Shown here piece by piece: positions 2,890 through 19,228 of a stretch of 64,000 bases of DNA (positions are counted from its first letter, which is position 1; each line of letters opens with the position of its first letter). The DNA comes from Acidobacteriota bacterium (GTDB lineage Bacteria > Acidobacteriota > Blastocatellia > RBC074): contig JACPYM010000007.1 of NCBI GenBank assembly GCA_016196035.1, forward strand, positions 1 through 64,000, given 5' to 3'. A program made the translations under genes and the position numbers. A model generated the notes under the pieces. That model had not been told where the DNA came from. It saw only the letters and a program-made list of their open reading frames with translations, and ran no database searches.

Positions 2890-3345
2890 AACACCTCACA
2901 GAGTTGTGTTTCACCACTAGGGAACGAAGAGCACGAAGACTGTTGTTTGTAATGAAAAAGGAATGTAGCGGTTTTGCAGCCGCGTAGCGGCGACCTGAGT
3001 TTAGCACGGCGTTTCAACGCCGGGAAAGGTCAGTGTCAAATCCGCGTCGCGTCAGCGACGCCTGAATTCAGGCGTCGCTGACGCGACGCGGAACTGTTGT
3101 ATCGCTTACCGTGGTTTGAAAACCACGGCTAAATTCAACTGTCGCTATGCGACAAAAACGGCAGCACCTTACTTTTCATCACTATCACATGTTCGTTGCA
3201 CCTTTCGTTGCCGCATGGTTTCAAACCATTGGTAATGCCTATAGCGGTGCCGACTATAGCACAATTTCGTTGCTCGACATTTGCCAGTGGCGATGCGAAG
3301 ATGCCCGCTAAATCAGGACTTTTTATCATTGCTTGGAGCTAGACG
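2890..3345. other. Intergenic gap with several short palindromes, no gene seen
   Basis: No convincing reading frame is visible in these 456 bases between divergent genes. The gap holds small hairpins, for example at 3007-3022 (CGGCGTT with AACGCCG) and at 3109-3128 (CCGTGGTTT with AAACCACGG), in addition to the 52-base palindrome at 3041-3092. Promoters for both neighbours must lie here, but I cannot place them with confidence. Confidence 0.6.
3041..3092. repeat. Perfect 52-base palindrome without a loop
   Basis: The bases read identically on both strands, centred on the EcoRI-like GAATTC at 3064-3069. Each arm contains GCGTCGCGTCAGCGACGCC or its complement. Because no unpaired loop is built in, it resembles a cruciform-forming site or the product of head-to-head duplication rather than a classic terminator. 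No T-tract follows on either strand. Confidence 0.85.
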
Positions 3346-4320
3346 ATGTTCGATTACGCTGCCCTGCCGACGGCGGAGTTGCTGGAATTATTGTTCAAAG
3401 AAGAAGACCGCGTCACCGCCGCGCACATTGAGGAATTGGTCAAACGCGGCGACGAAGCTTTGCCGCCACTGCGCCAGTATTTGCAGAACGAAGATTACTG
3501 GTATGAAGGCAAGGGCGGCGCTTACTGGATCGTCTATCACGCCTGGACGATCCTGGCGCTACACGGCAAACCCGAAGACATCCCCTTGGTGCTGGATAAG
3601 CTGATGGATGTCTTTTATGCCGATAGCGAATGGGTGATGGGTTCGTTACCCGCTTTGTTGGCGGCTTTTGGCAAGCCGATTGCGCAACCGTTGATGGATT
3701 TCATCCAGCGCGAGCAAAACGGTTACAAAGACAATCAGGATTATGCGCAGGCGCGTTACAAGGCGGCGGCGGCGCTGGCCCGGTTGGGGCACGCGCACGC
3801 TGATTTGCGCGAACCGCTCTTTACGTTTTTGAGCAAGCGGTACACTGACCGGCAGGAAAACGATGTGCTGTTCCTGACGATGGCGGCGGATAGCCTGGTT
3901 TATCTGGATCGCAAGCGCGGCCTGTATGCGTTGCGCGCGGCGTATGACCGCAATGTCATCAATCGGAAGATGCTGGGCACGGTCAGCCAATTTGTCGCTT
4001 CCCTGGATCAGCCGGATCATCACCACCAGTATGATTTTGAAATCGAGTTGCTGGATTTTTATGAATCGGAGGCGCAAGCCGAGCGGCAGGAACGCTGGCA
4101 GCGTGCAGCCGCCGAACCCGTACAACTATATTGGGAACCTGGTTCAAAGCCGCCTACCAGCGCGCCGGAGCCGTGGCGTTTGGACGATGAGCCTGAAGCG
4201 CCGCCCGGTTACGAAGTCTCTGCGAAAGGTACCGTGCTCAATCCTGGCAAGATCGGACGCAACGATCCTTGCCCGTGTGGTTCAGGCAAGAAGTTCAAGA
4301 AATGTCACGGCACGGAGTAA
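3346..4320 (+). CDS. SEC-C zinc-motif protein with helical-repeat N-terminus
   Basis: The 324-residue product ends in [17 protein letters not shown], a textbook SEC-C zinc-binding motif (CxCx8CH type) as found at the SecA C-terminus and on many accessory proteins. The first 230 residues are mostly helical, with leucine- and alanine-rich repeats that resemble HEAT-like or DUF1186-type scaffolds (for example [20 protein letters not shown] and [19 protein letters not shown]). No catalytic motif was recognised. The ATG at 3346 follows a GGAG about 9 bases upstream. The likely role is a cytoplasmic adaptor that docks through the zinc motif. This is inference. Confidence 0.75.
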
Positions 4321-6967: not shown

Positions 6968-7537
6968 ATGTCCTCTGCAAACGGGCCAACGAGCGAGATC
7001 ACTGACTTACTGCGGCGCATTGAGCAGGGCGATGCTCTGGCGCACGACCGCCTGGCCGGCTTGGTGCGCGCGCAACTCAAACGTATCGCCGCCAACCGTC
7101 TGCGCCGCGAACGCCCGGATCATCTCTATCAAACCTCCGACCTCGTGCAGGAAGCCTATATGCGTCTCTTCAACATGAAAGAAGTGCACTGGGAAGGGCG
7201 CGAACATTTCTTCAAAGTGGCGGCGTTACAGATGCGGCGCATCCTGGTCGAATACGCGCGCCACGCCTACCGACACAATCCCGTCAACGTGCCGCTTGAT
7301 GATGTGCCTGGCTTGCAGTTCGCCGCCGGGCCGGAATTGCTGCGCGTCAACGAAATTCTTTACGACCTGGAAAAGATTGATCCGCGTCGCGCCGAAATCG
7401 TCGTGTTGCGCTATTTCGGCGGCTATCAAATCGAAGAGATCGCCCGGTTGACCGGCCTTTCCGTGGGCACGGTCAAACGCTACTGGGCGACGGCCAAGGC
7501 TTTCATAAAATTGCAACAGGGTTATCCCACGGCGTAA
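6968..7537 (+). CDS. ECF-type RNA polymerase sigma factor (TIGR02999/Sigma70_ECF type)
   Basis: The 189-residue product matches the sigma-70 ECF group (TIGR02999, PF07638) that is common in Acidobacteriota and Planctomycetes. It has a region 2 with DHLYQTSDLVQEAYMRLF (about residues 52-70) and a region 4 helix-turn-helix with YQIEEIARLTGLSVGTVKRYW near the C-terminus. GGGGAG sits just upstream of the ATG at 6968. A longer reading from 6806 is possible but lacks a ribosome site. The gene is 30 bases upstream of a Ser/Thr kinase, a pairing typical of this sigma group, in which phosphorylation rather than an anti-sigma factor is thought to control activity. It likely drives the downstream block. 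This is inference from position. Confidence 0.9.
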   Translation: MSSANGPTSEITDLLRRIEQGDALAHDRLAGLVRAQLKRIAANRLRRERPDHLYQTSDLVQEAYMRLFNMKEVHWEGREHFFKVAALQMRRILVEYARHAYRHNPVNVPLDDVPGLQFAAGPELLRVNEILYDLEKIDPRRAEIVVLRYFGGYQIEEIARLTGLSVGTVKRYWATAKAFIKLQQGYPTA

Positions 7538-7567
7538 CGCCACGCCCGTCTCCCCGGAGAGCAAACC

Positions 7568-9220
7568 ATGCAGCAAGACCCGACCGATGAAATCACCCGT
7601 GAACGCTGGCGGCGCGCCTTTGAATTGTGCGAAACCTGCGCCGCCTTGCCTGCGGCCCAGCGTGCCAGCCATTTGCAAACGGCTTGCCAGGGCGACGCGC
7701 TGCTCTTGCGCTGCGTGCAGCAGATGCTCAGCGCGCAGACCGTCGCCGAAACCGACGGTTTTCTGGAAGCGCCGGCCTGGTCTTACACCCCGCCCGCGAC
7801 TGATGCGCGCGCCGCGCTGGGCCAATCCGCCGGCGCTTACCGCATCACGCAGTTCCTGGATCGCGGCGGTATGGGCGAAGTCTATCTGGCCCGCCGCGCC
7901 GATGGGATGTTCGACCGCCAGGCCGCCGTCAAATTGATCCGCGCCGATTTGAACGCCAAAGATTACCGCCGCTTCCGCCGCGAAGTGCAGATTCTGGCCG
8001 ACCTGAAACACGCCAACCTGGTGACGCTTTACGACGCGGGCCGCCTGCGCGATGGCCGCCCTTATCTGGTGATGGAATACGTCGAAGGCGAGAACCTGCG
8101 CGACTGGCTGCAAACGCAAGGCACGCCGCCACGCGAGACCATCGGCGAAATCATGCGCCAGTGCTGCGCCGGCCTGCACGCCGCGCATCAAGCCAGCGTC
8201 ATCCACCGCGACATCAAACCGAACAACATCATTGTTCAACAGCAAGCTGAACTGCTTGCCGTCAAGCTGCTCGATTTCGGCATCGCCTATCGCCGCGAAC
8301 TCTGGCAGACCAATCAGACGCAAACCGACGGCGCCATCGGCACGGTCGGTTACATGTCGCCCGAACAGTTGCAGGGCACGCCGCCGGAGCAATTGACCGC
8401 CGCCTCGGATGTCTATTCGATTGGCCTGGTGTGTTACGAAATGCTGGCGGGGCAGCCCGCCTACGCCGGCCATTCGCAAGCTGAGGTGATTGCCAAACGC
8501 TTCTATCAACCGTTGCCCCCGCCCAGCGCGCGGCGGCCCGAACTGGGCTTTTCGCCCACGCTCGACCGCGTCGTGCTGAAGGCGCTCGCCAACGCGCCAA
8601 AAGACCGCTATCAATCGGCGCTCGCCTTTGCGCGCGAATTGACCGAGGCGTTGCGCGAGACCGCGCCGTTGACTGATTCGCAGCCCGTGCCGCCTGCGCG
8701 CGCGCCAGTGCCCGTTGCCGCATCCGTTGCCACGTCCGTATCCACACCCACACCCACGCCCGCGCCGTTGCCGCGCCCGCGCCGTTGGGCGTGGCTGGCG
8801 GTGGCGTTGAGTCTGACCGCTGTGTTGGGCGCGGGGCTTTACCTGCTCTGGCAAAGGTTGCCGGCGCGCACTACGACGCCGCTGACCACCCTGCCGCCCC
8901 CGCCCGGCGCACCTGATACGCCCGGCTTGCAACTGCGGCTGACCGTGCGGAATGCGCAAGGCCGCCCGTTGCCCCAATGCAGCTTTGCGCTCTTCAACGC
9001 GGGCGTCAGCAGTGAGCCGAAACCGATCACCACGCAGAACGCGCTCGTCTTGCGCACCGATGCCACAGGCCACGCCGAGAGTGCCGCCGTGCGGCCCGGC
9101 ACGTATCTGACCAAAACGGTTTGCCGCAGCCATCGCACGCTGAGCGAGACGCTCACGCTGGCCGAAGATTTGGCGCGCCCGGGCACGATCAGCGTGGTCA
9201 GAGCGCTGCAACCTGAGTAG
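7568..9220 (+). CDS. Membrane Ser/Thr protein kinase (Pkn/Hanks type)
   Basis: The 550-residue protein has a complete Hanks-type kinase domain at about residues 90-365. It shows the glycine loop DRGGMGEVYLARR, the VAIK-type lysine in AAVKLIRADL (K122), the catalytic loop HRDIKPNN (D215), DFGIA for the DFG motif, and GTVGYMSPEQL in the activation segment. A Pro/Thr-rich linker leads to one membrane helix near residues 405-427 (WAWLAVALSLTAVLGAGLYL), then about 120 extracytoplasmic residues. That outer part resembles a small beta-sandwich (LQLRLTVRNAQGRPLPQCSF) and may sense ligands. All catalytic residues look intact. GGAG precedes the ATG. It follows the sigma-factor gene closely and precedes exported proteases. 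Confidence 0.93.
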   Translation: MQQDPTDEITRERWRRAFELCETCAALPAAQRASHLQTACQGDALLLRCVQQMLSAQTVAETDGFLEAPAWSYTPPATDARAALGQSAGAYRITQFLDRGGMGEVYLARRADGMFDRQAAVKLIRADLNAKDYRRFRREVQILADLKHANLVTLYDAGRLRDGRPYLVMEYVEGENLRDWLQTQGTPPRETIGEIMRQCCAGLHAAHQASVIHRDIKPNNIIVQQQAELLAVKLLDFGIAYRRELWQTNQTQTDGAIGTVGYMSPEQLQGTPPEQLTAASDVYSIGLVCYEMLAGQPAYAGHSQAEVIAKRFYQPLPPPSARRPELGFSPTLDRVVLKALANAPKDRYQSALAFARELTEALRETAPLTDSQPVPPARAPVPVAASVATSVSTPTPTPAPLPRPRRWAWLAVALSLTAVLGAGLYLLWQRLPARTTTPLTTLPPPPGAPDTPGLQLRLTVRNAQGRPLPQCSFALFNAGVSSEPKPITTQNALVLRTDATGHAESAAVRPGTYLTKTVCRSHRTLSETLTLAEDLARPGTISVVRALQPE

Positions 9221-9229
9221 GCGAAAAAT

Positions 9230-9265
9230 AAATTTTCGGGGCTGTGTCCCTTTTCCGAAAAATTT
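9230..9265. terminator. Weak stem-loop after the kinase gene
   Basis: AAATTTTCGG and CCGAAAAATTT can pair with one bulge around a 15-base loop in the 130-base gap between the kinase and the DUF4384 gene. The stem is AT-rich and has no clear T-tract, so it may be a partial attenuator or an RNA processing site rather than a strong terminator. Confidence 0.35.
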
Positions 9266-9350
9266 GCGCTTATCTAGTTGCAACACTCACGTCGGAATCG
9301 TCACTCCGGCAATAGGCAGACAACTTTGACAGACCAGAAGGAGGCTCGTG

Positions 9351-10034
9351 ATGAAAAAACTGTTCGCGCTTATTTTCCTGCTCGGCACGTTGTGCGCTGG
9401 CGCGGCTTACGCTCAAGACGAAGCGGCGGCCCGCGATCTTTACAGCAGCTACGCCAAGACCGGCACGAAAGGCCGGCCCGGCGCCCGCATCAGCATTGAG
9501 CTATTGCGCGGCGGGCAAACCGGCTTCGTGCCGCTCGACACCGGGTTTAAGGCTGGCGATAAGGTCAAACTACACTTCGAACTCAATTTCCCGGCCTACG
9601 TCGAAATCTACAACCTGGGCACTTCGGGCCGCCTGCAACGCCTCTTTCCGGCGGCGGGTGTGAGCGGGCCGGTCAAAATTGTCTCTGGCTACACCGTGCC
9701 GGCGCCCGCCGACGAATGGCTGCGCTTCGATCAGCGGGCGGGCATTGAACGCTTGTCCTTCGTCTTTTCCGCCGCGCCAGTTGCGCCGCCCAAGCTGGTC
9801 GCGGCGCAAAAACGTCCGCCCGCCAGCGCCAAGCCCAAAGCTAAAGGGGACGCCGCGCCCGCTGCCAGCGATACGCAACAAGCGCTCGACGATCTTAACG
9901 CGCGCGAAATGGCTGGCGACGCCGAAGGCCGCGACTTCGACCGCGTGCGGGTCGGCGCGGATGCTTACGTGCTGAGCAACCAGCAACGCTTGCGGCGCGC
10001 GCTTTACGTTTCGATCAACTTGCAGCATCGGTGA
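9351..10034 (+). CDS. Secreted DUF4384 domain protein
   Basis: The 227-residue product starts with a clear Sec signal peptide (KKLFALIFLLGTLCAGAAYA, cleavage before QDE). It continues with a DUF4384-like domain: ISIELLRGGQTGFVPLDTGF, then FPAYVEIYNLGTSGRLQRLFP, then YTVPAPADEWLRFDQRAGIE. DUF4384 occurs beside kinases and caspase-like proteases in many bacteria, and its function is unknown. A basic Ala/Pro/Lys-rich linker (about residues 145-180) and a short C-terminal segment follow. AAGGAGG at 9338-9344 fits the ATG at 9351, with a GTG three bases earlier as an alternative. The next protein in the block carries a second DUF4384-like segment, so the two may pair. Confidence 0.8.
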   Translation: MKKLFALIFLLGTLCAGAAYAQDEAAARDLYSSYAKTGTKGRPGARISIELLRGGQTGFVPLDTGFKAGDKVKLHFELNFPAYVEIYNLGTSGRLQRLFPAAGVSGPVKIVSGYTVPAPADEWLRFDQRAGIERLSFVFSAAPVAPPKLVAAQKRPPASAKPKAKGDAAPAASDTQQALDDLNAREMAGDAEGRDFDRVRVGADAYVLSNQQRLRRALYVSINLQHR

Positions 10035-10041
10035 GGGCCTG

Positions 10042-10138
10042 GCCTGGTGCGGTACCGGGAGCGGTAGCGATCGGGTTTCTGCGGGATGTGCGCTTGCAAA
10101 GAAACCCGATCGCTACCGCTCCCGGTACCGCACCAGGC
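10042..10138. repeat. 39-bp perfect inverted repeat between block genes
   Basis: The arms at 10042-10080 and 10100-10138 are exact complements and contain GGTACCGGGAGCGGTAGCGA. The loop is 19 bases. There is no T-tract after the stem, and the next gene's ribosome site begins within a few bases, so it resembles a mobile hairpin or transcript-stability element rather than a terminator. The GGTACCG core is shared with family A hairpins elsewhere in the window. Confidence 0.9.
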
Positions 10139-10159
10139 TGTCCCAAAGGAGAACCCGCC

Positions 10160-11803
10160 ATGAAAAAACTGACTGCCGGCGTCTGCTTCGTTACGCTCGT
10201 GTTGGGCTGGCTGGTACTGCCGCAACTCAGCAGCCGCGCGCAAACCCGTAAACCCAACAGCCACGCCTTGCTGGTTGGCATCAATCACTACGCCCAAGCC
10301 TACGTTCCGCCCACGCCCGGCGCGGAAGAGGATGCGCTGGCGATGCGCGAATTGCTCATCAAGCATTACGGCTTCCACGCTGACGAAATCAAACTGTTGC
10401 TCGGCGCGGAAGCCACCGCCGCCAACATCGTCGCGGAATTCCGCCGCCGCCTGATTGCGGAAACGCAACCCGGCGATCACATCTTTTTTCATTACTCCGG
10501 CCACGGTTCGCGCGTGCCCGACGATAACGGCGATGAAGCGGACGGTTTCGACGAAGTGCTCGCGCCCTACGATGTCGCGCTGCAAGGCGCGGACAGCTTT
10601 GCCAACATCATCCGCGATGACCTGATCGGCGAATTGATCGGCGAGTTGAAAGGCCGGCAGGCCGTGCTCGTTTTCGATTCCTGCCACTCCGGCACGATTT
10701 CCAGAGCGCCCGGCAATGCGCCCGCCAGCGCCGCCGTCAAACCGCGCTATTTGCCCGCGCCTGCCGAGTTGAGCCGCCTGCAAACGTCGTCACGCGCGGT
10801 TGGCGGCGGCCCGGCGGGTTATGACGTGAGCGACTTCGCCGATGAGATAAACAGCCGGCAATTGCGCAAGCGCGACCTGAAATTGGTGAAAGAGAAACTG
10901 GACGATTCGACCGCGCGCATCGCCGTCATCTCCGCCGCGCAAGCCGGCCAACTGGCCTATCCGGTCAAGGTGGCGGGCGGCGACCGTGGCGCGCTCTCTT
11001 ACCTGTTCACCGAAACGCAGCGCGAACGCGCGCTGTCTTTTAACGAACTGCGCGCGCAAATCACGACGCGGATGGCGACATACAACAGCGGCAAGCGCCA
11101 ACAGACGCCGGTCTTCGAGGTGTTGACGCCCTTCTCGCTGGATGAGCCGTTGTTTGCGCCGATGCCGTTCGTCATCCCGGCCATCGCCTTTGCCAACCCT
11201 GACTCCACACTCAAAGTCACGCTGCGCAACCTGGAGGGCAAACGGCGCTACCAACTCGATGACGAGATTTCCTACGAGGTGACGACCAGCGCGCCGGGCT
11301 GGCTTTATCTGGTGGTTTTTAGCCAGGAGGGCAAAGCCACCTGCGTTTTTCCGACCGCTGAAAACGCGGATGATCGTGACAACTATGTCCGGCAGGGCAC
11401 GCAGCGTCTGCCGCGCTCGAAATACTTTTACGCAATACCCCCGCTGGGCAAAGACATCGTGGTCGCCCTGCTGTCGAGCAGCAAGCTCAATCTAGGCGAC
11501 AAGGAGGAACTGACCTGGGACGAAGTCTTCGCCCGGCTGCGCAGCAACAAGCTGACCGGCTACATCAACCGGCGCGGCGTCGGCACCAAAAAGCCGGGCC
11601 AAGCATCTGCCTCACCCGCTTCACTCCCAACTTCACTTGATGACACCGATTGGCAAGCCGCCAGTCTGGTCATCGAAACGATCAAAAAGCCGGACGGGAA
11701 AAAGGCCGCTGTCTCCCGTCCGGCAAGACGCGCAACACACGCGGGCAAAGGTGGCGGGACTGTACAGCCACCTGTTTTGCGCGCGGCGTTGAAACGCCCT
11801 TGA
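10160..11803 (+). CDS. Secreted caspase-like (C14) protease with DUF4384-like domain
   Basis: The 547-residue protein has a signal peptide (residues about 1-28, ending SSRAQ) and a caspase-fold domain at about 34-330. SHALLVGINHYAQ is the first strand. The catalytic dyad is His115 in HYSGHGSRVPDD and Cys175 in FDSCHSGT. An acidic Asp-rich segment follows the histidine, as in Ca-dependent metacaspases. Residues about 370-470 form a DUF4384-like beta domain (WLYLVVFSQEGKATCVFP). The linker after it holds RGVGTKK at residues 472-478 (11573-11593), also found in the other two caspase proteins of the block. The tail is Arg/Lys-rich. The ATG at 10160 has AAAGGAG upstream. Substrate and activation are unknown. 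Confidence 0.9.
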   Translation: MKKLTAGVCFVTLVLGWLVLPQLSSRAQTRKPNSHALLVGINHYAQAYVPPTPGAEEDALAMRELLIKHYGFHADEIKLLLGAEATAANIVAEFRRRLIAETQPGDHIFFHYSGHGSRVPDDNGDEADGFDEVLAPYDVALQGADSFANIIRDDLIGELIGELKGRQAVLVFDSCHSGTISRAPGNAPASAAVKPRYLPAPAELSRLQTSSRAVGGGPAGYDVSDFADEINSRQLRKRDLKLVKEKLDDSTARIAVISAAQAGQLAYPVKVAGGDRGALSYLFTETQRERALSFNELRAQITTRMATYNSGKRQQTPVFEVLTPFSLDEPLFAPMPFVIPAIAFANPDSTLKVTLRNLEGKRRYQLDDEISYEVTTSAPGWLYLVVFSQEGKATCVFPTAENADDRDNYVRQGTQRLPRSKYFYAIPPLGKDIVVALLSSSKLNLGDKEELTWDEVFARLRSNKLTGYINRRGVGTKKPGQASASPASLPTSLDDTDWQAASLVIETIKKPDGKKAAVSRPARRATHAGKGGGTVQPPVLRAALKRP

Positions 11804-11898
11804 ACCGCCGGCGACCGGCACGTCACCGCGTCACGCGCGCGGCTGGCAGACATTCAACCCAAGCTGATCTCATTCAGCTCTGTTTAGGAGGCATGACC

Positions 11899-13809
11899 AT
11901 GAACACCATCATTCGCAACGCAGTGCTCGCGATCAGCCTGCTTGGGTTAGGCGCTTTCGCTTCCCCCATCCAGGCTTCCCCAATCCAAGCTTCGCCGACA
12001 CAGACGGACAAGCAGGAGCAAGCCGACAAAAAGGCCAAAGAGAAAGAGAAAAAAGACGGCGGCATCAAGACCAAAGTCGGCGACATGTTCGGCATTGGCG
12101 ACAAAGAGCAGCGCCAGGAGCGCGCCCAGGCGAAGTCCGAACGCGAATACCAGAAGATGCTGGCCGACGCGCGCAAGAAATACGACGCCGGGTCGAAAGA
12201 CCACAGCCCGGATTTCAAGTACCGCGTGGATCAGGATTACAAGGAGGTGCGGCGGCAGCACAGCGATTACGGCTTCCAGATGAACACCTTCAACAGCAAT
12301 GACGACGTGACGACCTTCACCGGCGACAAATTGAAACTGGAAGACACGCTCTATGACAACGAGTTCGTCCAGGATTACGTCAACCGCGTCGGCCAAGCGC
12401 TGGTGCCGGCCACTTCGGCGCAACGTTACATCTTCAAGGTCGTGCTCAATCCGGTGCCCGATGCGCGCTCGCTCTCGACCGGGACGGTCTACATCACGAC
12501 CGGCTATCTGGCGCTGGTGGATAACGAGGCGCAGTTGGCCTACATTTTGGGCCACGAGGTGGCGCACATCGAGAAGCTGCACTGGCTACAGGATTCGCTC
12601 GTCTCCAACGAGATGGAGGACTTCAACCGCAAGCAGGAAAAGATTCAAGGCTATGCTTCCCTGGCAGCGGGCGGGTTGGGAACACTCTTCGGCGGCGCGG
12701 CCAGCGGCTCGTTTTTGCGCGGGATGCAATACGGCTATTTCGCCAGCGAGTTGACCGCGCTGGTGATGAAGTTCGTCAAGCCGACCAAGAGCTTCGCCTG
12801 GGATCGCGTCCAGGAAAACGAAGCTGACAAGTACGGCATGGAGCTGATGTTCGAGCGCAATTACGACCCGCGCGAAGTGCCGAAGCTTTACGCGCGCTTG
12901 CAACAGTTCAATGCGCGCGAGCCGCGCACTTCCGATGGTTTCGTGGCTCAGGCCGACCGCGTGTTGGAAGGCAAGACCTTTTCCAATTTCGCCATGGTTT
13001 CCTGGTCGGTCAAACCCAACCTGATGCGCGGCGCGGCCAATTTGCGCGCGCGACGCGGCGACACGGCGGATGGCGGCATCGTTTCGCCGCTGGAACCGGG
13101 CAAGACCTTTGGCACGGCTGAAGACGCTGAGAAGCGCGAAAAGGGTGCGACACAACAGATGGACAACCTGAACGCTGTGCTGCGCGAGAAGCTGGAGAAG
13201 GGCGAAATCATCGGCAGCAGTGAAGAGTTCCAATCGGTCATGGCCGATCTCAAACGCGACAACGGCATCCGCGCGTTTTATTTCGACATGTACCAAATGG
13301 CGCTCGACAACCTCCGCGAGGCGCTGCAAATCCGCTCGAACGATCCCTACACGCATTTCTACTACGGCAAGGTGCTGCATGCGACCGCGCGTTCAAAAGC
13401 TGAGAAAGCCGAGGCGCTCAGTTCGATCATCAAGGCCATCGAAACCGACAAACGCGGCGTGCTGGCCGGCCCCTGGATGCATCGCGCGCTGGTGCTGATG
13501 GCCGATCGCAATCCGGCGCAGAACCGCGAGATCATTGGCTATTTGCGGCAATACGTGGATGTTTATCAGCAAGAGCACGGCGGCGGATTGCCGCCCAACA
13601 TGGATGTGATCTACGCCTACTTGAAAGACCTGGGCGACGATCAATGGGCCGCGCGTCCGGCCATGAACATCTCGACCAAGAATCTCGATCCGATCAAGAC
13701 GGCGGGCGGTCAGGCGGCGCGCGAACCTGCGCCCTTGCCCGCTCCGCAACCGCAACCGTCATCACCACCCGCGTCTGCCGCGCCCAACAACGTGAAACGC
13801 AAACCGTAG
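11899..13809 (+). CDS. Secreted M48-family zinc metalloprotease with TPR-like C-terminus
   Basis: The 636-residue protein has a signal peptide (about residues 1-25), then a Lys/Glu-rich stretch (EQADKKAKEKEKKDGG) and an M48 peptidase core. The HExxH zinc site is HEVAH (H219, E220, H223), with the downstream glutamate in ENEADKYGMEL (about E308). A hydrophobic glycine-rich segment separates them (GYASLAAGGLGTLFGGAA). The C-terminal half is helical, with ALDNLREALQIRSNDPYTHF typical of TPR repeats, and ends in a Pro-rich tail. Related BepA/YfgC-type proteins act in envelope quality control. AGGAGG at 11886-11891 favours the ATG at 11899 over the one at 11893. The gene is framed by two hairpin repeats and two caspase genes. 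Confidence 0.9.
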   Translation: MNTIIRNAVLAISLLGLGAFASPIQASPIQASPTQTDKQEQADKKAKEKEKKDGGIKTKVGDMFGIGDKEQRQERAQAKSEREYQKMLADARKKYDAGSKDHSPDFKYRVDQDYKEVRRQHSDYGFQMNTFNSNDDVTTFTGDKLKLEDTLYDNEFVQDYVNRVGQALVPATSAQRYIFKVVLNPVPDARSLSTGTVYITTGYLALVDNEAQLAYILGHEVAHIEKLHWLQDSLVSNEMEDFNRKQEKIQGYASLAAGGLGTLFGGAASGSFLRGMQYGYFASELTALVMKFVKPTKSFAWDRVQENEADKYGMELMFERNYDPREVPKLYARLQQFNAREPRTSDGFVAQADRVLEGKTFSNFAMVSWSVKPNLMRGAANLRARRGDTADGGIVSPLEPGKTFGTAEDAEKREKGATQQMDNLNAVLREKLEKGEIIGSSEEFQSVMADLKRDNGIRAFYFDMYQMALDNLREALQIRSNDPYTHFYYGKVLHATARSKAEKAEALSSIIKAIETDKRGVLAGPWMHRALVLMADRNPAQNREIIGYLRQYVDVYQQEHGGGLPPNMDVIYAYLKDLGDDQWAARPAMNISTKNLDPIKTAGGQAAREPAPLPAPQPQPSSPPASAAPNNVKRKP

Positions 13810-13828
13810 CGCAAACCGTAGCAATTGA

Positions 13829-13953
13829 CCCTGGGTACGCACCGCTTCCAGCGTGCGGGCTTGAAATCGGAGCGCGTAATGCCGGAGAGTTTTCCTTCGG
13901 CATCATTCCGTCCGCCACCGAGACCGCACGCTGGAAGCGGTGCGTACCCAGGG
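13829..13953. repeat. 30-bp perfect inverted repeat with 65-base spacer
   Basis: The arms at 13829-13858 and 13924-13953 are exact complements containing GGGTACGCACCGCTTCCAGC. The spacer has its own small imperfect hairpin (ATGCCG with CGGCAT). It lies in the gap between the M48 gene and the second caspase gene and ends 35 bases before the next start codon. Confidence 0.88.
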
Positions 13954-13987
13954 TTCCGCTTCAAACCCGCTTTCCCTCGGAGGTCTT

Positions 13988-15859
13988 ATGCGTCGTCGTC
14001 TGCTCATCCTGTTGCTTGTCTGCGCGTTGAGTTGGTCAGCCGCCCAGCCGAGCGCCCAGCAAATCGCCCAACAAATTGTGGATGCGCGCGAGCCGTTCGC
14101 GCTGGAAATCCCGGAAATTAATAGCGGTCTGCACACCGCGATGGATGTCACCTTCCCTACCGACCGCCTGATTACGCGGCTCAAACTCTGGGTTGTCACG
14201 CCCTATGCCGAGCGCATTTCGTATGGGCATATCAGCGCCAAATTGAATGACGTTTCGCTTGGCCCGGTCGCCAAACCACGTGCTGGTTTGCATGGCACCT
14301 TCCTGGACATAGACCTGCGCTTACAACCGACGATCAAGTTGCTGAACGGCAAGAACCGCATTGAAATCCTCGCGCAGGAAGACCGCACTGGCAAAACCTA
14401 TCGCTGCTCCTTCGTGCTGTTGCCCGGCAAAGTGAACGCCGCCGCCACGCCCGAAGCGCCCGACACCACGATTCGTTGTAGCGAGGCCTTGGCTCCAGCC
14501 GACCCGCACGCGCCCGTCAGCGACCACCAGGCCCCGCAAATCAACCTCGCCGAGCCGCAAGCCGCGTTGCACGGCACGGACGCGCCGCTGCGCGTGCGCG
14601 TGCGCGGCGACGCCACTGACAACAGCGGCGCCGTGGCCTCCGTCACCGTCAACGGCCAATTGATCGCGCCGCCCCAACTCAGCAAAACCGAGCAGAAAGC
14701 CAAAGAGCAAGCCGCCAAAGAGCAAGCCAAGCAGGACAAGAAAACCAACCAACCGGCGGTTGACCCCGCGACGATCAAGTTGCCCTTCGATCAAACCGTC
14801 ACCGTGGAGGCCCAGGCCCGCGTCGTGTTGATCGAAGCCGCCGACCGCGTCGGCAATCGCCGCCTGTGCAGCGTCCCCATCCTGCGCGCGCCGGTCGCCA
14901 AGCGCGAAGGCTTTGGCGGACGCCGCTACGCCGTCATCATCGGCGTTTCGCAATATCTCTACAGCGAAGGCGGCCTGTCGAATTTGAGCTTCGCCGACAA
15001 GGACGCCGAGGCCCTGCGCGATTTTCTGAAGACGCCTGCGGGCGGCGGTTTCAAACAGGAAGAGATCGTTTGCCTGACGAACCGGCAAGCAACGCAATTG
15101 GCCGTCAAAGCCGAAGTCACGCGCTTCCTGACCAACGCGACCGAGAACGATCTGATCTATCTGTTCCTGGCCGGCCACGGCGCGCCTGATAAGTACGACC
15201 CGCAAAAACTCTACTTCCTGCTGCACGACACCAAAGTCGCCGACCTGCCGGGCACGGCGCTCTCGATGCGCTGGCTGGGTGAATTCCTGGATCGGCAAAC
15301 CAAACGCGCGCGCGTCATCGCCTTTTTCGACACCTGCCACAGCGCGGGCATCAATCGCCAAGCGCTCAGCGCAGCGCCCCCGGCTGCCCCGGTGAAACCG
15401 GGTGGCCCGGACAAACGCGGCGTCGGCACGAAGAAGGACAAGCAGTCCGCGCCGCCCGCCAACCAGCCGCCCACGGTCACGCTCAGCGTCGGCGCGCCCG
15501 CCACATCGCCCGCCGCGCAACCCGGCTTCAATTTTTACGAAGGCGCGCTCTTTCAAAAGAAAGGCTGGACGGTCATCAGTTCCTCCGGCCTGAACGAAGA
15601 GTCGCAGGAAGGCGCACGCTGGCGCGATGCGGCGGGCAACGGCCACGGCGTGTTCACCTGGGCCTTGCTGGAAGGTGCGCAACAAGGCAAAGCCGATGCG
15701 AACGGCGATTGCCGGATTACGGCGGGGGAGCTTTTCGATTACATCCGAAAGACGGTGAGCGGCGCGACGGGCGGGGCGCAGAATCCGCAAGCGTTGCCGG
15801 GAGGGAATGGTGATTTGGCGATTGCAACCGCGCCTTGTCAGAAACCAACGCGTCCGTAA
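13988..15859 (+). CDS. Secreted caspase-like (C14) protease with N-terminal beta domains
   Basis: The 623-residue protein has a signal peptide (about residues 1-23), a beta-rich segment (about 35-150), and an Ig-like segment (about 180-300) split by a Lys/Gln/Glu-rich insert (residues about 233-252). The caspase domain begins at RRYAVIIGVSQYLYSEGG (about 312). Its dyad is His397 in LFLAGHGAPDKY and Cys450 in FFDTCHSAGI. RGVGTKK lies at residues 477-483 (15416-15436), in a Pro-rich insert 27 residues after the catalytic cysteine, between the two expected caspase subunits. That is where zymogen cleavage linkers usually lie. GGAGG precedes the ATG. It is probably active and exported. Confidence 0.9.
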   Translation: MRRRLLILLLVCALSWSAAQPSAQQIAQQIVDAREPFALEIPEINSGLHTAMDVTFPTDRLITRLKLWVVTPYAERISYGHISAKLNDVSLGPVAKPRAGLHGTFLDIDLRLQPTIKLLNGKNRIEILAQEDRTGKTYRCSFVLLPGKVNAAATPEAPDTTIRCSEALAPADPHAPVSDHQAPQINLAEPQAALHGTDAPLRVRVRGDATDNSGAVASVTVNGQLIAPPQLSKTEQKAKEQAAKEQAKQDKKTNQPAVDPATIKLPFDQTVTVEAQARVVLIEAADRVGNRRLCSVPILRAPVAKREGFGGRRYAVIIGVSQYLYSEGGLSNLSFADKDAEALRDFLKTPAGGGFKQEEIVCLTNRQATQLAVKAEVTRFLTNATENDLIYLFLAGHGAPDKYDPQKLYFLLHDTKVADLPGTALSMRWLGEFLDRQTKRARVIAFFDTCHSAGINRQALSAAPPAAPVKPGGPDKRGVGTKKDKQSAPPANQPPTVTLSVGAPATSPAAQPGFNFYEGALFQKKGWTVISSSGLNEESQEGARWRDAAGNGHGVFTWALLEGAQQGKADANGDCRITAGELFDYIRKTVSGATGGAQNPQALPGGNGDLAIATAPCQKPTRP

Positions 15860-15931
15860 ACTGAGGAGCCGCAATTTTTGCTTTTGCTAGCGATGGTTTT
15901 TCTGCTTGCTCAATCTGAGAGAGAAGATCAA

Positions 15932-18900
15932 ATGACGAACATGCCTTTCATCCCTCGAACAAAAAAGTCGGCGGCAATACGACTGTCAGTGCTGCTTGTC
16001 TTATTTGCCAGCTTATCCAGCGCTGTCTTGTCTCAGACTCCAACCCCACCAGCGGCGGCAAAACCGGAAGTGTTGGGTTATGGCGATAGCCCTGGGACAA
16101 TCAATTCCGTCGCTTGGAGTCCCGACGGGAGGTTTTTGGTGTCGGGCGGCAGGGGCAATGTAGTGCAAGTCTGGGATACCGAGAGTGGCGAGTTATCCAC
16201 CAGCTTCAATGGGCATACGGCTGATATCCGGTCGGTCGCGTGGCACCCGGAGGGCAAGCTAATTGTTTCGGCCAGCGACGATAAGACGATTCGGATTTGG
16301 GATGTAGCCAGCCAGAAACTTTTGCAGGTTCTAAGAGGGCACATCGGCGCAGTAACTTCAGTTGCGATCAGCCCCGATGGCAAATTTTTGGCCTCGGGGA
16401 GTGATGATGACTCGATTCGTATCTGGGAGTTACCTGAAGGGAAGCTTGTGCAAACGCTCAACGGGCATACTAATGATGTCCACGCGGTAGCTTGGCATCC
16501 CTCCGGCAAATTTCTAGGTTCGGGTGGCTCAGATCACATGGTAAGAGTATGGGATTTAGCGGCGGGCAAATTGCTTCATACCTTGAAGGGGCATAAGGAA
16601 CCTGTTCTCTCGGTTGCGTGGAGTCCGGATGGCAAATGGATTGCTTCAGGAGGGCGCGATGAAAAAGTTGTTATTTGGGATTTCAACACTCAGAAAATGG
16701 CTCGTGAATTCCCGACCAAAGAAGGAGCAATCAATTGGGTGTATTCAGTATCCTGGAGTCCGGATGGTAAGAGAATTGCCGCAGGGAATAACGATGATCG
16801 GATTCGTATTTGGGATACTGAAAGTGGAAAGCTACTAAATAACATCAGATTGTCGCCAGTTATCAAGGTGCTTTCGGTCGCTTGGAATCCCGATGGAAAG
16901 CAGCTCGCTTCAGGTTCCTGGTCGGCCCGGGTACCGTTACAAATCTTTGAGACACAAAACTGGCGGTTGACAAAAAGTTTCTCCGGGCGGGATAGGTGGG
17001 TTCTCTCATTATCAGCCACCCAGGATGCCAAGATTGTTGCTTCAGCCGAACGTGGAGGAAAAATCAGGTTATGGGATGTTGACACTGGTAGCACCCTAAG
17101 GACATTTTCAATTGGAGCTAGTAATAGTTTCGTAGTTGGTTGGAGCAAGGATGGCGAATATCTCATCGTTAGTGGTGCGGATATACCAGTTCGTCTTTAT
17201 CAAACCAAAACTGGAGAATTGTTGAGTACGTTTGATGAGCAAACAATCGGGGCGAGACTGGTCGGGTTGAGTTCAGACCAAAAACTGATTACTTTGCAGG
17301 AGAAAAGCAAAGCTATCAGTCTTTGGGATACTGATAGCGGCAAGCGAGCGCAAAAATTGTTTGATCTTGTCGATCCATATACTGCCATTGCGTTCAGCCC
17401 AAATGGTGAATTGTGTGCGATAGGGAACTCCGACAAGACGATACATTTGCGGTCTACCAAAACAGGACAAACCTTACGCACGCTGACTGGCCACATGAAG
17501 AACGTCAATTCGTTTGCGTGGAGTCCTGACGGCACACAACTCGCTTCCGGCAGCGATGATCAAACGGTTCAATTGTGGGAAGCCGCGAGCGGCCGGCCCC
17601 TGCGCACGTTGAAAGGCCACAGTGGTTGGGTGGGAACCGTCCGTTGGAGCCGCGATGGCAAATGGATTATCTCAGCCAGTGGGGATAAGACGGTCAAAAT
17701 TTGGGAAGCGCAAAGCGGCAAGCAGTTACATACGCTCAAAGGGTATAACGCTCCGGTTCGCGCCTTGCACTTGAGTCAAAATGGTAGATTCCTGATTACA
17801 GGCAGCGATGACCGCGAGATCAAGCTTTGGGATACACGGAATTGGTCGAACCCGGGTTCGATCCTCTCTTTGCCGGAGGATAACTGGCTGGCCTACACCG
17901 ATGACGGTTATTTTCATAGCTCTGATGATGCCTTGCGTTATGTGAAATGGCGCAGAGGAGAGCAGACGCTTGATAACGAGCAATACAAAGCCCAGCATTA
18001 CCGGCCCGATTTGGTTGCGTTGCGGCTGAAGAGCTTTACCGCAGAAACAAATTTACTAGCTACCAACCCAACAAGCCAGACAGGAATGCAACTGCAAACT
18101 CAAGCGCCGCCACAATCGCAAGCTACTCCGGTCGTACCTAAACCCAATGTTGAAGTAAAAGACACTAAGCCGCCCCTCATCCGCATCACTGCGCCTGACA
18201 TCACGCGCGGCGTCGGCACGAAAAAGTCTGACAGCAAGCTCAGGGTGGCCGGGCAAGTGACAGATGAATCCGGCATCAGTGAAGTCACGGTGCGCGGTCT
18301 TGCGGCAACGCTGGATGAGCAAGGCAACTTTTCGGCAGAAATCTTGCTCAAGCTCGGCAACAACCCGATCAAAGTGATCGCCACGGATATTTATGGCAAC
18401 AAGGCTGAAGAGAGCTTCACTATCCGCCGCGAAGAGCCGCCTGTAGCCGAAGCGAAACCGTCCGTGCCGCAACCAAAGCCTGACCCCGTGCCCACCTGGG
18501 CGGTGCGCAAAACCTATGCGCTGGTGATCGGCAATAACAAGTATCAACATCTGGCGGCACTCAAAACCGCAATTGCCGATGCCGAACAAGTGGAGCGCGT
18601 GTTGCGCGAAAACTTCGGCTATGCAACGACGCTGCTCAAAGACGCCAAACGTGAGCAGATAGTGCTGGCGTTGAGCGAATACCGCCGCCAGCTCGATGTG
18701 AACGCCGACTTGTTGATCTATTACGCCGGGCACGGTTATTTCGACACGGATGTGGACAAGGCTTACTGGCTGCCAGTGGATGCGCGCGATGGCGATGTCT
18801 CCAATTGGATCAGCGCCGATGACGTGACGACGAGCATCAAGGGAATGCGGGCGAAACATGTGCTGGTGGTTTCGGACAGTTGTTACTCCGGCACCTTGGC

Positions 18901-19228
18901 GCGCAACACGGTCAGCAAACTGACTACGCCGCTGGAACACGACAGGTATTTGCGGAAGATGGCTGAAGGCACATCGCGCACGTTGATGGCGAGTGGCGGC
19001 AACGAGCCTGTGTTGGATGGCGGTGGCGGCCGGCATTCGATCTTTGCGAGTGCGTTGCTGCGCGGGTTGGAACAGCTAGAGCCATCGGTCTTCACTGCCG
19101 ATGAGCTGTTCTTCCAGTTTGTGCGCGAGCCGGTGGCGGGCAAGTCCGCGCAGACGCCGGAATACAATCCACTGCGCAATTCCGGGCACGAGAGCGGCGA
19201 TTTCGTCTTTGTGCGTAGGAAACCGTGA
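15932..19228 (+). CDS. Secreted WD40-repeat / caspase fusion protein
   Basis: The 1098-residue protein has a signal peptide (about residues 1-35, ending AVLSQ). About 14 WD40 repeats fill residues 45-660, for example HIGAVTSVAISPDGKFLASG and SDDKTIRIWDVASQ-type units, enough for two seven-bladed propellers. A Pro/Gln linker follows, then RGVGTKK at residues 759-765 (18206-18226) directly before an Ig-like domain (LRVAGQVTDESGISEVTVRG). The C-terminal caspase domain starts near KTYALVIGNNKYQHL and has His934 in YYAGHGYF and Cys984 in SDSCYSGTLA. The start at 15932 gives a good signal peptide; earlier TTG/ATG codons at 15878 and 15893 are alternatives. Codon use in the WD40 part is more AT-rich than in the neighbouring genes. 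Confidence 0.9.
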   Translation: MTNMPFIPRTKKSAAIRLSVLLVLFASLSSAVLSQTPTPPAAAKPEVLGYGDSPGTINSVAWSPDGRFLVSGGRGNVVQVWDTESGELSTSFNGHTADIRSVAWHPEGKLIVSASDDKTIRIWDVASQKLLQVLRGHIGAVTSVAISPDGKFLASGSDDDSIRIWELPEGKLVQTLNGHTNDVHAVAWHPSGKFLGSGGSDHMVRVWDLAAGKLLHTLKGHKEPVLSVAWSPDGKWIASGGRDEKVVIWDFNTQKMAREFPTKEGAINWVYSVSWSPDGKRIAAGNNDDRIRIWDTESGKLLNNIRLSPVIKVLSVAWNPDGKQLASGSWSARVPLQIFETQNWRLTKSFSGRDRWVLSLSATQDAKIVASAERGGKIRLWDVDTGSTLRTFSIGASNSFVVGWSKDGEYLIVSGADIPVRLYQTKTGELLSTFDEQTIGARLVGLSSDQKLITLQEKSKAISLWDTDSGKRAQKLFDLVDPYTAIAFSPNGELCAIGNSDKTIHLRSTKTGQTLRTLTGHMKNVNSFAWSPDGTQLASGSDDQTVQLWEAASGRPLRTLKGHSGWVGTVRWSRDGKWIISASGDKTVKIWEAQSGKQLHTLKGYNAPVRALHLSQNGRFLITGSDDREIKLWDTRNWSNPGSILSLPEDNWLAYTDDGYFHSSDDALRYVKWRRGEQTLDNEQYKAQHYRPDLVALRLKSFTAETNLLATNPTSQTGMQLQTQAPPQSQATPVVPKPNVEVKDTKPPLIRITAPDITRGVGTKKSDSKLRVAGQVTDESGISEVTVRGLAATLDEQGNFSAEILLKLGNNPIKVIATDIYGNKAEESFTIRREEPPVAEAKPSVPQPKPDPVPTWAVRKTYALVIGNNKYQHLAALKTAIADAEQVERVLRENFGYATTLLKDAKREQIVLALSEYRRQLDVNADLLIYYAGHGYFDTDVDKAYWLPVDARDGDVSNWISADDVTTSIKGMRAKHVLVVSDSCYSGTLARNTVSKLTTPLEHDRYLRKMAEGTSRTLMASGGNEPVLDGGGGRHSIFASALLRGLEQLEPSVFTADELFFQFVREPVAGKSAQTPEYNPLRNSGHESGDFVFVRRKP

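Follow-up and report, generated by a model that had tools for sequence, protein, structure and literature searches.

The window, i.e., the whole stretch of 64,000 nucleotides analyzed here from an Acidobacteriota bacterium, contains a block of seven genes at positions 6968–19228, all on the + strand, which encode a sigma factor, a Ser/Thr kinase, a DUF4384 protein, the caspase homolog C14a, an M48 metalloprotease, and two further caspase homologs, C14b and C14c (Table 1). Searches with Pfam and TIGR profiles reproduced the gene content, families, strand, and positions given in an earlier note on this DNA, and the residue numbers that it gave for the three caspase dyads were exact. In a Pfam profile search, C14a, C14b, and C14c all score over the PF00656 cut-off, and the His-Cys dyad is intact in each. 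Based on fold and dyad, these three proteins are assigned to the peptidase C14/orthocaspase family. Each also has an Asp two residues before the catalytic Cys (Asp173, Asp448, and Asp982, respectively; the sole pocket residue checked), which fits the expectation for cleavage after Arg or Lys. The M48 protein scores over the PF01435 cut-off. Its HExxH residues (H219, E220, and H223) and E306 are invariant among 16 aligned sequences, the third ligand lies in an ExxAD motif, and the protein has a long conserved C-terminal region. The model of the DUF4384 protein has a mostly beta core, for which Foldseek gave no informative structural match. The outer part of the window kinase is not DUF4384 and had no match in Pfam.

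Table 1. Genes, repeats, and motif copies of the protease block in the window.
Feature	Position	Strand	Basis
TIGR02999-type ECF sigma factor	6968..7537	+	PF07638 E 6e-34; TIGR02999 152 bits, over cut-off
Ser/Thr kinase	7568..9220	+	PF00069 E 6e-47; membrane helix (hydropathy)
DUF4384 protein, predicted exported	9351..10034	+	PF14326; structure model; Foldseek
Perfect 39-nt inverted repeat, DUF4384/C14a gap	10042..10138	.	Repeat scan
C14a caspase with C-terminal DUF4384, predicted exported	10160..11803	+	PF00656; His115/Cys175
RGVGTKK of C14a, past DUF4384	11573..11593	+	Repeat scan, peptide search
M48 metalloprotease, predicted exported, module marker gene	11899..13809	+	PF01435; alignment; relatives
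Dispersed inverted-repeat element, M48/C14b gap	13828..13954	.	Repeat scan; ~175 half-copies in genome
C14b caspase with two N-terminal Ig-like domains, predicted exported	13988..15859	+	PF00656; His397/Cys450; model
C14b p20-like/p10-like linker, residues 461–519	15368..15544	+	pLDDT <50; conserved Arg in relatives
RGVGTKK of C14b linker	15416..15436	+	Repeat scan, peptide search
C14c WD40-Ig-caspase, predicted exported	15932..19228	+	PF00656; WD40 repeats; His934/Cys984
RGVGTKK of C14c, Ig-like region loop ahead of caspase domain	18206..18226	+	Repeat scan, peptide search

By Kyte-Doolittle hydropathy, which served for all export and helix calls in place of a trained signal peptide predictor, the DUF4384 protein, C14a, M48, C14b, and C14c each have a single N-terminal hydrophobic stretch of the signal peptide type and no other. 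This pattern agrees with the export signals previously assigned to the last five genes. By the same measure, the kinase has one helix near residue 410 and the sigma factor has none. A location of the module in the periplasm or at the cell surface appears plausible. Further caspases of the same genome also look exported, and metacaspases with an N-terminal helix, perhaps a signal peptide, were already described (PMC3501461); the statement that bacterial caspases are mostly cytoplasmic is thus too strong.

With M48 as the neighborhood marker, 58 relatives and then a named genome collection were searched. These searches identified 31 long M48 orthologs, all from Acidobacteriota and including some Terriglobia. 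In 24 of the 31, M48 is followed by C14b on the same strand; in 21 loci, the start of a same-strand C14 gene lies no more than 200 bases past M48. In three loci (L124, L125, and L133), C14b is present after M48 with a called ORF start that is too long or a split frame, and in two others (L132 and L139) the contig stops inside C14b. Two loci in which the contig stops right after M48 (L112 and L119) were left out of the testable count, and C14b is absent after M48 in L131, L135, L140, and L141. Of the 29 or 30 testable loci (the total depends on the treatment of L131), about 26 thus have the M48–C14b order, whereas none of the 49 other M48 loci from the same scan has a C14, kinase, or DUF4384 gene. 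For this pair, the conserved gene order that the earlier note proposed to look for in Acidobacteriota is present. DUF4384 proteins of the exported type and membrane kinases recur beside M48–C14b, and many of the one-helix kinases of the relatives carry DUF4384 beyond the helix, i.e., outside the cytoplasm. The arrangement of the block is more than chance, and the comparisons support the existence of a conserved exported protease neighborhood, in which M48 is followed by C14b, with DUF4384 proteins and membrane kinases nearby. Through guilt by association only, M48 may act on the caspases.

Several loci depart from the common pattern. In L131, the gene after M48 (1863–2936) keeps the C14b-like N-terminal domain and has lost the caspase part. 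In L125, C14b (2892–4208) lies in two frames of a metagenome contig, a consequence of either assembly error or decay. The C14b partner of M48 in three Terriglobia loci (L130, L136, and L137) has its catalytic Cys replaced and is apparently a dead caspase, which suggests that caspase activity is not always what holds the pair together. L099 and L100 (G056:C105) form a cluster of about 35 kb that contains numerous C14 genes together with two kinase genes and several genes for DUF4384 proteins.

The distribution of the pair also bears on the function often proposed for bacterial caspases, namely a cell-death or anti-phage module. PADLOC models do match the caspase and kinase domains, but these matches (generic caspase and kinase, plus one in the WD40 region) are at the domain level and do not add up to any complete known system. 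Given that the proteases look exported and that the M48–C14b pair is kept across Blastocatellia and in some Terriglobia, such a role is very improbable.

The seven genes as a whole do not form one fixed unit. In the genome G042, the sigma factor, a DUF4384-tailed kinase, DUF4384, C14a, and a C14c-like gene are on one contig, and M48–C14b is on another. Because both sets exist on separate contigs in that genome, the window looks like two sub-modules placed side by side. Inverted repeats lie between the window genes, such that a single transcript of all seven cannot be assumed. The perfect 39-nt repeat between DUF4384 and C14a has a 19-nt loop and is unique within the window and among the other loci examined. 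The repeat between M48 and C14b resembles a dispersed element of the REP or MITE type, and its half-copies across the genome are often arranged in facing pairs with a spacing of about 96 bases. In a promoter/terminator scan, the number of sites was similar to that in shuffled sequence.

The sigma factor is incidental and outside the module core, given the size of its family, the position of most members beside kinases, and its rare adjacency to the module. The genome has 48 TIGR02999 sigma genes, among which that of the window scores lowest, and a kinase lies within 1.5 kb of 23 of the 30 best; the sigma-kinase pair is probably generic here. Among the loci examined, just three have a sigma gene next to the module, namely those of the window, G017:C35, and G042:C268. 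With these figures, control of the proteases by the sigma factor, as proposed in the earlier note, is not supported.

The three caspases of the window share a short peptide. A repeat scan found a 22-nt repeat family inside the three caspase genes that encodes RGVGTKK, which is the sole exact peptide of at least six residues common to C14a, C14b, and C14c. The three positions are non-homologous, being after DUF4384 in C14a, between the p20-like and p10-like parts in C14b, and in an Ig-like loop ahead of the caspase domain in C14c. DNA that could encode GVGTKK occurs at exactly three places in the 9.6-Mb genome, one per cluster caspase, and the reversed-pattern control for GVGTKK gave no occurrence in the genome. 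Across 98 genomes, RGVGTKK was found only in the three window copies and in C14a of the sister species G001. This C14a has about 49% identity over the matched length, yet RGVGTKK is identical at the same place; the C14b linker of G001 falls in a contig break. Related sequences occur at corresponding sites elsewhere: G042 has RGIGVR at the C14a site and RGQGA (TRGQGA) at the C14c site, and G009 has RGQGV (TRGQGV) at the C14c site. In addition, RGQG[VTAS] is present shortly before the catalytic domain in unlinked caspases of G000, G001, and G006 and in one caspase of the G042 cluster. The pattern R-G-[QVI]-G-[TSVA], derived from a motif that was first noticed in the window and tested afterwards, occurs in 13 of 128 C14 genes compared with 4 of 1372 other genes (Fisher 1e-11, a value that ignores relatedness), and permuted motifs were not enriched in the C14 genes of the same set. 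On the basis of the GVGTKK count, the 98-genome search, and the enrichment in C14 genes, chance was rejected as the origin of RGVGTKK. A dispersed mobile repeat was likewise rejected, because the motif has just three copies in the genome compared with the many half-copies of the nearby inverted repeat. Substrates at other RGQG-type places were considered and rejected. The genome has 18 matches to the pattern; the only caspase among them is the unlinked C14 of contig 35, and the remaining matches are in short, antisense-looking, or unrelated frames.

Among the motif copies in relatives, the codons differ at third positions while the peptide is kept. This makes recent DNA copying the less likely origin, although the three window copies are near-identical in DNA. 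It also weighs against ordinary envelope quality control, in which a BepA-like M48 would work with an accessory C14b, the kinase, sigma factor, and other caspases would be loosely attached, and the motif would have been copied between neighbors. The M48 protein does resemble BepA in profile searches, and the large genomes of this group are rich in caspases, kinases, and sigma factors, with partners that vary; nevertheless, its BepA model score is far under the cut-off, and both unlinked caspases and other genomes contain the motif again, which leaves quality control a distinctly unlikely explanation.

The AlphaFold model of C14b consists of a caspase fold and two Ig-like domains, and the solved structures closest to it in fold are those of GSU0716, plant metacaspase-4, and MALT1. 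The linker residues 461–519 have pLDDT values below 50 and are predicted to be disordered. An Arg is kept in this linker across families, in contexts such as TRGLENN, SGRDLVQ, and GMRRLS. Two related genomes, represented by L124 and G089, belong to a lineage distinct from that of the window and have a shared sequence of their own. In L124, RELVQEDDE is present in the p20–p10 linker of C14b and RQLVQEDDE in the N-terminal region of the next caspase, and most codons of the two differ in their third base. In G089, the linker has RDLVQEDDE and the partner caspase has RELTQEEDN. Over eight genomes, linker and pre-caspase sites matched better when paired within the same genome than in permuted pairings (p 0.004, a result carried largely by three genomes, of which two are related), and the sites match poorly in several genomes (G042, G056, G015, and G038). 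These results are no more than suggestive of a lineage-specific pairing of sites.

Taken together, these observations point to an exported protease module whose caspases would be Arg-specific and would share one processing site, with the cuts probably made by fellow caspases, a reading that we consider plausible and only just short of probable. The core of such a module would be the neighbors M48 and C14b, to which C14a, C14c, other exported caspases, DUF4384 proteins, and the kinase may have been added by lineage. The caspases would be made as precursors and then exported. One caspase of the set may cut after the motif Arg in itself and its partners, such that a single activity would open the p20–p10 linker of C14b as well as the linkers or N-termini of the partners. 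M48 may trim or remove the products, either downstream or alongside. Through its outer domain, in many relatives a DUF4384 domain, the kinase could report the state of the envelope, and in this species the neighboring sigma factor may modulate expression. Cleavage, its direction, the partners, and the trigger are all inferred. A common processing site is favored because caspase homologs other than animal caspases cleave after Arg or Lys and the orthocaspase MaOC1 autoprocesses (PMC5756287). On the other hand, arginines are commonplace in flexible loops, which counts against a processing site.

The main rival to processing holds that the shared motif serves for docking or recognition, or as a neo-N-terminus to which a partner, for example M48 or DUF4384, binds; the module would then be real with no mutual cutting. 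It is the main rival because conservation extends beyond the Arg: the motif runs several residues past it (RGVGTKK and RELVQEDDE), more than Arg-specific cleavage requires, and in several caspases it is near the mature N-terminus. Nonetheless, the C14b copy is in the interdomain linker, the usual place where caspase-type enzymes are opened, and relatives keep the Arg; docking is accordingly unlikely, if still a serious contender. Within the favored processing hypothesis, a more specific version is an extracytoplasmic caspase cascade with a co-evolving common activation site, shared by the interdomain linker of C14b and the N-termini or linkers of the partners and lineage-specific in sequence, where one caspase would open the others and M48 would cooperate. 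This version is possible but doubtful. The common linker motif provides a concrete sequence reason for the "proteolytic cascade" of the earlier note, whereas the sigma control attached to it is unsupported.

To our knowledge, the substrates and activators of bacterial caspase homologs are mostly not known. A site that recurs at unrelated positions in the caspases of one genome yields a hypothesis of their wiring that is open to direct testing, and the conserved M48–caspase pair names a specific partner for a bacterial caspase. What is new here is one short motif common to three caspases at non-homologous linkers. Like other orthocaspases (PF00656; PMC3501461, PMC6426788), the three caspases have the p20 fold, the His-Cys dyad, and an acidic residue two positions before the Cys, and WD40 and DUF4384 accessory domains are known in other members (PMC7475262). 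They differ in the presence of several exported caspases per cluster, an M48 partner, and one common linker motif. Operons that encode metacaspases, up to three in a single operon and in some cases together with other proteolysis genes, have been described, and in 2012 those with multiple metacaspases were reported only from Alphaproteobacteria, Bacteroidetes, Cyanobacteria, and Deltaproteobacteria (PMC3501461). In our search of the open-access literature for prior descriptions, the term M48 was absent from the text of that paper. The three caspases score 46, 96, and 79 bits against the EACC1-associated caspase model NF047832, under its cut-off of 140 bits. The M48 protein shares with the beta-barrel assembly-enhancing protease BepA (PDB 6ait, 6sar), which is among its closest solved relatives by profile, the character of an envelope M48 peptidase. 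It differs in its caspase neighbor, in the additional long conserved C-terminal region, and in its score of 55 bits against NF052400 (cut-off 570); by this curated model, it is classified as a peptidase M48 member and not as BepA. The PknS-EcfK system (PMC13147305) similarly places a membrane Hanks-type kinase next to an ECF sigma factor, but in the genome of the window such adjacency is generic. MaOC1 of Microcystis is likewise an autoprocessing bacterial caspase homolog with a basic P1 residue, for which the available portions of PMC5756287 and PMC7935541 report neither an export signal, nor an M48 partner, nor a site common to several caspases. If the processing hypothesis is true, the module would represent a multi-caspase activation cascade outside the bacterial cytoplasm, unlike the single-enzyme cases in the portion of the literature available to us.
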